A stretch of DNA of 42,373 nt from an uncultured Lachnospiraceae bacterium. GTDB taxonomy: Bacteria; Bacillota; Clostridia; Lachnospirales; Lachnospiraceae. Below the pieces are notes generated by a model. That model worked only from the letters and a program-made list of their open reading frames with translations, was not told the DNA's origin and did no database searches. Positions 63-35,768 of the stretch are shown here, piece by piece. The position numbers were made by a program, and so were the translations under genes. Position 1 is the stretch's first letter. Each line of letters starts with the position of its first letter. The DNA is taken from assembly GCA_947174495.1 (NCBI GenBank), contig CAMWJC010000022.1, positions 1 to 42,373 of the forward strand, written 5' to 3'.

Positions 63-207
63 AAATTGATGGCGGATAGATTTCATGAACAGGCACCTAT
101 AGAAGACTGGATTAAGAAAATATATGAGAAAAGAAGATGAAAAATTCATGGAATTGTTCGAGCAGTTAATTTAACGTTTAACTTGGGTATGCATATGCAG
201 AACATCC

Positions 208-292
208 GCTCAGATGAAAAGAAATCCTTTCGTCAACACGCTCGATAAAGCGTTCGCGAATTGTTTCCTCAAGGATTTCTTTTCATCTGAGC
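208..292 (+). repeat. Left long hairpin of the inverted element
   Basis: The arms 208-229 and 271-292 are perfectly complementary over 22 bp. The 41-nt loop 230-270 contains a 5-bp inner hairpin, ACGCT/AGCGT, followed by the palindrome TTCGCGAA. Read in the same orientation, the loop matches the right-hand copy at 38 of 41 positions by hand alignment. Confidence 0.85.
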
Positions 293-427
293 TGGGCTAT
301 CGGATGACGCAAAGCCCAACTGTCAACTCGGCTAAGGTCGAATAGTCTACTCTTTGGCAAATAGCCAGATTGTGAATTAGGCGACTATAGTGGAGTCAAT
401 AGCTGTTTTTCCGTCAGCCAAAAACTA

Positions 428-513
428 ACTCGGATAAGAGATAAATTCTTAAGGAAGCAATTCGCGAACGCTTTATCGAGCGTGCTGACGTAGAATTTAT
501 CTCTTATCCGAGT
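428..513 (-). repeat. Right long hairpin of the inverted element
   Basis: The arms 428-449 and 492-513 are perfectly complementary over 22 bp, with a 42-nt loop at 450-491. Read on the minus strand, the loop is nearly identical to the left loop. The stem differs from the left stem at 10 of 22 positions, with no pairing lost. Confidence 0.85.
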
Positions 514-619
514 GATCGTTTAGGTCCTATGAGTAAACCAGCTAAACGTTAACATGGTGACGCTGTCTTAAAGCGCAATCATAAAGAATTATTGCCATAA
601 AAATTTTTCTCTACAGATA

Positions 620-35474: not shown

Positions 35475-35762
35475 TAAAAAAGCCCTCCTCTCTGAAAATT
35501 TCTTTTCAGGGACGAGAGCCTTATGCTTCGTGTTACCACCCTAAATTCACTTAGACCTCACGGTATAAGCCTTATCAACTACGGATGAGAAATGATTCAT
35601 CGATAGTCTATCACTGTAACGGGTGCACCCGTCGTAGCCTTGGCAGGTTTGCTTCGGTACGCAGCTCCGGGACCATTTTCGACAGTTCCTTCCGTGCCTG
35701 CTCTCACCTACGCAGGCTCTCTGTGACGTATCTAACCGTTTACTCTTCCCTTCATTGCCTTT
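35475..35762 (-). ncRNA. T-box leader (tRNA-Met sensing) of metG
   Basis: On the minus strand the leader contains the T-box sequence AGGGTGGTAACACG (complement of 35529-35542), the universal site that pairs with uncharged tRNA ends. An intrinsic terminator follows (35475-35520: GGCTCTC and GGAGGGC arms with a T-run). A likely specifier ATG (complement of 35674-35676) sits in the context AAAATGG. Uncharged tRNA(Met) should stabilise the antiterminator and allow metG transcription. Confidence 0.9.
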
Positions 35763-35768
35763 CGCAGT

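Follow-up and report, generated by a model that had tools for sequence, protein, structure and literature searches.

The attC sites of integrons keep their structure, are free in sequence and are placed after stop codons. The block described here belongs to another known kind, the bacterial palindromic repeats, as an unlisted variant. A published account of REPs (PMC3733652) nowhere uses the word Firmicutes, and in a second paper (PMC8794818) template switching was presented as both the maker and the keeper of hairpin stems. In our study, we found a large intergenic repeat family in gut Lachnospiraceae that is apparently undescribed; no publication about it was recognised in the open PMC literature.

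The window, which is the whole stretch of DNA that was analysed, was 42,373 nucleotides long and came from an uncultured Lachnospiraceae bacterium. A direct check of the sequence confirmed the two-hairpin block that a first-pass annotation had placed at 171–552, with perfect 10-bp inverted repeats at its ends (171–180 and 543–552) and two perfect 22-bp stems (208–229/271–292 and 428–449/492–513). The block was found to contain the following features.

171–195, plus strand: left terminal inverted repeat, with a perfect 10-bp core at 171–180; 25 nt at 76%
208–229, plus strand: 5' arm of hairpin 1, 22 bp, perfect, compensated across 40 hairpins
230–270, plus strand: head of hairpin 1 in the short loop-1 form, with CGTC, a variable 3-bp stem AAC/GTT, GCTCGATAAAGC and TTCGCGAA
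271–292, plus strand: 3' arm of hairpin 1, partner of 208–229
293–318, plus strand: small hairpin TGGGCT...AGCCCA, read in the sequence
319–404, plus strand: central region with more self-complementary segments, differing from copy to copy
405–425, plus strand: small hairpin GTTTTT...AAAAAC, read in the sequence
428–449, minus strand: one arm of hairpin 2, the module of hairpin 1 inverted
450–491, minus strand: head of hairpin 2; in the 430-bp form its place is taken by a long head built as a three-way junction that includes a GNRA arm
492–513, minus strand: other arm of hairpin 2, partner of 428–449
528–552, minus strand: right terminal inverted repeat, with its core at 543–552

In the register chosen here, the two stems differed at 11 of 22 positions, and all 11 changes were compensated on the opposite arm; the first-pass annotation had counted 10 differences and was right that all were compensated. 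The near-identity of the loops also stood, with 37 identical positions in a 41/42-nt alignment rather than 38 of 41. The two small hairpins do exist, as 6-bp stems, but the pattern of the large ones, which they were said to share, was weaker in them, the loops being partly similar. The perfect core of the termini was correctly given, and their extent was slightly short of the family-wide ends, which read TAAATTAACGTTTAG.

The fold of the block had a z of -12.4, and none of the 100 dinucleotide shuffles folded equally well. In 100 mononucleotide shuffles, no perfect arm was longer than 10 bp, whereas those of the block reach 22 bp; from both comparisons, the hairpins are not a product of chance. 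No long ORF was found across 171–552. A covariance model of the loop-1 hairpin (R1) matched 422–518 on the minus strand (E 1e-22). A second model (R2) was built on the sister head, i.e., the 430-type head, from the 23 sequences of alignment A2 (22 of the 26 listed, and L195), and it matched hairpin 2 of the window at 431–513 (E 1e-8); the short head therefore appears to be the long-head module in reduced form. No second copy was found within the window by DNA search or with R1 and R2. In Rfam 15, nothing reached the gathering cut-off; the best match over the block scored 21.7 bits vs. 100, and a sub-threshold match elsewhere was found in locus L219.

Two Band_7/SPFH genes come after the block. 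At 620–810, a strong promoter-like site (TTGACA-17-TATTAT) was followed by a structured leader and then by these two genes. The leader contained a long hairpin with a T-run at about 752–796 (z -3.3), which was unlisted by the terminator scan; it had no Rfam match and presumably resembles a leader of the yybP-ykoY type. A T-box leader was present at 35505–35764 on the minus strand (E 7e-22).

The suggestion that the block belongs to a repeat family was borne out. DNA search of the own genome (G000) gave 83 matches, many of them the palindrome in its reverse reading, and all 40 distinct places extracted (L001–L040) contained the element or a part of it, so that the copy number is at least 40 with partial copies included. 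A pattern scan of genome contigs gave 55 stretches, of which 52 were in one MAG of another species (Lachnospiraceae, Mgla_MAG_18-bin_8), one was in a further Lachnospiraceae MAG and two were single 21-mers elsewhere. A single-copy state did not occur. By plain DNA similarity, three of the 37 genus genomes matched (the own genome, G010 and G020), and in a family sample of 397 the own genome alone matched, besides two matches of 29–30 bp. These two, in genomes of other genera (L052, 30 bp; L053, 29 bp), were rejected as copies, as their context was without the element head and layout; the L053 match sits within a separate hairpin of its own. The matches in one Acidobacteriales contig and one Patescibacteria contig were also rejected, the element head and layout being missing in the context. 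The repeat seems to break assemblies, and several contigs of the sister species G010 start or stop within a copy.

A set of 45 full copies was obtained, excluding partial copies, contig-edge copies and six duplicates, with L013 assigned by length. The 380-bp form (26 copies) contained the same head twice in inverted orientation, and the 430-bp form (19 copies) contained a longer and different head in hairpin 2. For the comparison of sites, 32 elements of G000 were set against a subset of the G010 loci, not the whole G010 genome, and for 11 of them both flanks were found in one G010 locus, with an identity of mostly about 87–97%. One of these 11 shared sites was unchanged in kind and orientation (L009/L059). 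The 430-bp and 380-bp forms were exchanged at three sites (L033/L058, L039/L062, and L054/L095), and a type B element was in place at two (L018/L134 and L030/L157). The remaining sites, one each, showed inversion in place (L027/L089), a single hairpin (L012/L061), loss of the right end (L006/L065), a short left-end remnant (L026/L138) and an empty state (L007/L131). From this comparison, the insertion sites are fairly stable and the interiors turn over.

Type B elements (L134, L154, L155, L157, and L158) are nested-hairpin elements of about 640 bp with the ends of the type A element and other heads. Type C elements (L190, L191, and L192) are likewise nested hairpins with other heads, and L190 ends in CATAATTTAAAGTGTC. 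Modules common to types B and C were found, and R2 matched none of the B and C elements except for the hybrids; hybrids of B and A units were L163 and L166. Shortened one-hairpin derivatives were present in the window genus (L175, 164–334, and L061). An extra mini-hairpin of the GCGCCATACTGGCGC kind was optional at one place in either head (L007, L012, L021, L028, L031, L033, L036, and L166).

The fold was maintained across the copies, and the head was the constrained part, both as the first-pass annotation had proposed. Alignment A1 contained 40 hairpins picked by eye for diversity among the 90 distinct loop-1 hairpins listed, a listing that excludes hairpins with N and those with the GCGCCA insert. 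Its unguided consensus fold contained 26 pairs, 18 of them with double changes, and 96.2% of the 1038 cells were paired. Double-change cells numbered 178, compared with a shuffle mean of 49 and with 9–18 in the slid controls. The heads in A1 were near-constant and the stems variable with compensation. Between copies, the loop-1 head was near-invariant except for its paired triplet, which lies by the head and covaries (AAC/GTT, AGC/GCT, ACC/GGT, GCC/GGC, and GTC/GAC). Indels were matched on both arms in L011 and L062, and the customary internal loop had become fully paired in L090 and in L047/L049. Uncompensated stem mutations were not the rule across copies, but broken stems exist in some (L016 and L044), as is expected after recombination between copies, and one uncorrected G-A mismatch was common to seven left hairpins; both observations count against the explanation preferred below.

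The spread of the hairpin unit across the Lachnospiraceae went beyond what had been guessed at first. The fold of the 430-type head was a three-way junction. At a threshold of E 0.001, R2 matched 88 of the 394 relatives in the sample, these 88 belonging to 64 of the 289 genera, and the matches reached E 1e-26 outside the genus; the scan scored eight candidates per genome, so that the per-genome counts are lower bounds. R1 matched 16 of the 394. In a class-wide sample of 321 there were seven R2 positives, including the own genome, and all were labelled as the same family. No match to phage and plasmid collections was found by blastn with one head. Viral carriage was also sought with a degenerate head pattern, and it was rejected: two of 60 stretches, lying in DNA with a GC content of 69–73%, reached E values of 0.005 and 0.07, and these matches look like chance.

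The units were intergenic. In most of the loci examined outside the genus, there was one R2 hairpin between genes, and inverted pairs were found in G297. Alignment A3 contained 33 cross-genus heads and, being fitted to the model, leans to it; 39 of its 44 pairs were double-changed and 97.7% of 1443 cells were paired, against 34–47% in slid controls. The side-arm loop was GNRA in all 32 readable rows (GAGA 13, GAAA 8, GGGA 8, GCAA 2, and GGAA 1), and in the 33rd row the side arm was cut by an IS. The nine outer stems of G243 were mutually unrelated. In G216, the inner part of the stem was common to its eight loci and the outer part was variable, which also counts against the explanation preferred below.

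At shared sites, the stem turned over much faster than the head. The heads of G243 and G761 were identical at 85/85, 86/87, 85/88, and 68/88 positions at four sites. At the L302 site, compared among four species, the identity of the outer stem was 33/44 in the closest comparison and 4–12 of 39–40 in four more distant ones. In these distant comparisons, 5–9 of the 15 outer pairs had changed on both sides and were still Watson-Crick, and 5–7 of the 15 did not pair in one or the other species. In the four comparisons of G243 with G761, the outer stems contained 11 one-sided vs. four two-sided pair changes, and the heads contained two one-sided vs. eight two-sided (paired) changes. The two sets of comparisons show that one-sided intermediates exist in the outer stems and that restoration lags; the arms are not always restored, and this also weighs against the preferred explanation. 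The identity of orthologous heads was 77–100% and that of paralogous heads 59–81%. Since orthologous heads were mostly the closer ones, the heads are inherited in place, which homogenisation alone would not give.

The 45 full copies were used to examine the ends of the element. Adjoining TTAACG, the four flanking bases were T in 57, A in 75, A in 75, and A in 67 of the 90 ends, and the window copy deviated, having TAAT as its left flank and CATG as its right flank. Empty sites in the window genus (L007 and L031) contained TAAA-like and TTTA-like flanks with few bases lost and were too diverged to define the insertion. Gene 3' ends, taken from the longest open frame, faced the element on 55 sides, and on 36 of these the stop codon was within -9 to +8 nt of the border, a count that has no background control and includes some orthologous pairs of sites. 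In 13 of the 36, the stop was TAA-A immediately before TTAACG. The adjacency is partly forced, because the element ends contain stops in all frames. At the L007 site, the gene stop was at an unchanged place in two relatives without the element (L131 and L112). The idea that the stem was already there in the target, or arose as an inverted copy of a flank, was not supported: at the one clear empty site (L296 vs. G802 and G942) neither arm was present, the species being diverged.

Terminal repeats and tens of copies would be expected if the element were a MITE derived from a DDE insertion sequence that has TTAACGTTTAG ends and if its stems were ordinary relics homogenised by recombination, and IS4-family genes were indeed found within some copies. 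We consider such an origin improbable. In the 45 elements, target-site duplications were in no excess over shuffled pairs (offsets 0–6; lengths 2–6 and 8–10). The IS4-family elements inside palindrome loops of G010 and G011 (L094:5446–7130, L174:439–2008, and L195:1383–2962) had ends of their own (CAATGTCATT...), with 10-bp duplications in two of them, and on these grounds they look like passengers; hairpin loops may be preferred targets of this family. The transposase of L174 had no match in the host genome G000. Moreover, another genus, in which single units were found without TTAACGTTTAG ends, has conserved heads at the sites that its species share. L094 and L174, which are long and bounded by terminal inverted repeats, were tried as the autonomous element and rejected, both holding IS4-family insertions with own ends. 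The IS of L174 lies between the two arms, which form an 82-bp inverted repeat with few mismatches around it. The outer flanks of L174 are similar to those of two other copies, L017 (left flank) and L034 (right flank), which points to recombination between dispersed copies. Neither a mobilising enzyme nor an autonomous copy with the same ends was found in these draft genomes, in which the insertions seen inside copies were all of IS4.

A transposase of the RAYT/IS200 type acting on single strands had been among the first suggestions and was not supported. The Y1/RAYT family (PF01797) had no match in the host genome G000, which is 78% complete, and a partial match (positions 65–121 of 121) in the sister species G010. 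Among the genus genomes, it was present in 16 of 25 R2-positive genomes, absent from nine of the 25, and present in five of 12 R2-negative genomes, with no clear association, and no R2 match (E up to 1) was found around 15 of the 34 listed Y1 places. These results, together with a unit length of 85–140 nt vs. 20–40, make it quite doubtful that the block is a REPIN-like non-autonomous element whose folded single strand is recognised by a Y1/HUH (RAYT or IS200) transposase. The element does consist of two inverted hairpins, as that reading would have it. The lack of target-site duplication and the extragenic 3' positions are as in REPs, and the REPs of the CGTC group are likewise without a dedicated transposase, according to the published account of REPs (PMC3733652).

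Whether the pairing is kept in RNA or in DNA was examined by the kinds of mismatch. In a functional RNA, GU pairs would be expected to be common and AC pairs to be rare on the functional strand. In A3, 17 G-U and 15 A-C mismatches were found in the 1443 cells and were equally rare. Within the genus, A1 contained 18 GU vs. 9 AC (P 0.12), and A2 contained 18 GU vs. 2 AC, where 13 of the GU fell in a single poorly aligned pair of columns and the inner pairs contained two and two. Both sets thus tilt towards GU, though not decisively. The tRNA control for wobble gave six GU and no AC in 60 pairs, from five of nine tRNAs, which is too small a set. Head orientation was examined for 58 hits, of which 53 had both neighbours (four undetermined and one short flank), and L361 and L362, which repeat L276 and L290, were taken out of the count; in co-directional gene contexts, 16 heads were with and 19 against transcription. 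The 380-bp form contained the head in sense and antisense within one element. The equal rarity of GU and AC together with the mixed orientation favours, and does not prove, that the pairing is kept at the DNA level.

A sense RNA gene, as first suggested, is disfavoured by the same three observations, and we regard it as rather unlikely that the hairpins are functional RNA (UTR or sRNA elements) in which selection on the RNA fold yields the compensation. RNA would tolerate GU pairs, and Rfam 15 held no match above its cut-off. Strong covariation and UTR-like places would suit such an RNA; the main facts on its side are the GNRA tetraloop, placed on a covarying stem in a three-way junction, and the good compensation within heads, which at shared sites was better than that of the outer stems. 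DNA mini-hairpins of high stability are also formed by sequences of the GCGAAAGC kind. The block might also be a recombinase site, another of the first suggestions.

The explanation that we prefer, with somewhat less than even confidence, is a structured DNA repeat the arms of which are rewritten by template switching and the head of which is selected, and which was doubled and mobilised in the window genus. The unit would be an interspersed structured DNA element of the Lachnospiraceae with a conserved head of about 40–90 nt and a stem of about 20–30 bp that is largely free in sequence; outside the loop-1 form of the window, the head branches as a three-way junction, and a GNRA loop caps its side arm. 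During replication, the palindrome would fold out as a single strand or a cruciform, and template switching by the polymerase would copy one arm onto the other. Mutations in the stem would in time either be carried over to the second arm as well or be erased, at the DNA level, and selection would keep the head, probably because a factor of the host or of a mobile element recognises it in the folded state. That each arm keeps being rewritten from the other, one of the readings first offered, is thus the best-fitting account, at the level of what we infer. The two-arm changes, the matched indels, the loss of the internal loop and the in-place inversion were all seen and fit the predictions of template switching, and the IS-split copy L174, with its 82-bp inverted flanks, is a further trace of copying. 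The case for template switching rests on these patterns, which selection for DNA pairing could likewise have produced.

In the window genus, two mutually inverted units would have come together, with TAAATTAACGTTTAG terminal repeats on either side, as a non-autonomous mobile element. It would have reached tens of copies, often by stop codons and without detectable target-site duplication, through a mobilising activity that presumably acts on it by way of an enzyme in trans. A broader version is possible, and we hold it more tentatively: the units may form a family-wide class of elements that act as folded DNA and not as RNA, with a branched head that is recognised on extrusion and selected for a host function, and with a stem that is almost unconstrained in sequence because template switching rewrites its arms together. 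The heads might, for example, mark strands exposed during replication or the ends of genes, and in one genus pairs of units might have become a mobile element.

If the explanation by template switching is true, ordinary gut bacteria contain many natural replicates of a free stem with a following partner beside a slow head. The mode of stem co-evolution, by selection through intermediates or by template switching in one step, would then be directly testable. The family would also be a warning that covariation alone does not prove a functional RNA, and a widespread structured repeat, so far unlisted, would be added to the genomes of the Lachnospiraceae.

On the features tested, the block belongs neither with REPIN/RAYT elements nor with DDE MITEs. 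It shares with the REPs and REPINs (GTAG- and CGTC-tagged) the extragenic palindromes, the inverted dimers, the tens of copies and the variable stems, whereas its unit is 85–140 nt long with a branched head, compared with 20–40 nt in REPs, and the element of the window genus has terminal repeats and no RAYT link was seen. As in a REPIN, two inverted hairpins are present in the window genus; outside it there is usually one, with pairs in G297. The CGTC lies between the outer stem and the head (by eye), unlike the tag at the hairpin foot. With MITEs and fold-back elements it has in common that it is non-coding, with terminal inverted repeats, high copy number and a patchy occurrence among related genomes; the differences are the undetected target-site duplication, the compensated interior fold and the interiors swapped at fixed sites. 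Integron attC sites are alike in kept structure, free sequence and location after a stop, but the family ends are without the R''/R' core boxes (by eye; the one copy that RYYYAAC fits is that of the window), and the units are dispersed, with no cassette arrays in the loci read. The hairpins made by template switching (Monttinen and Loytynoja, 2022; PMC8794818) are alike in their multi-base matched changes and in the creation and repair of stems. Theirs were inferred for RNA genes, whereas ours belong to a dispersed repeat, the stem of which seems to be free of most other constraint.
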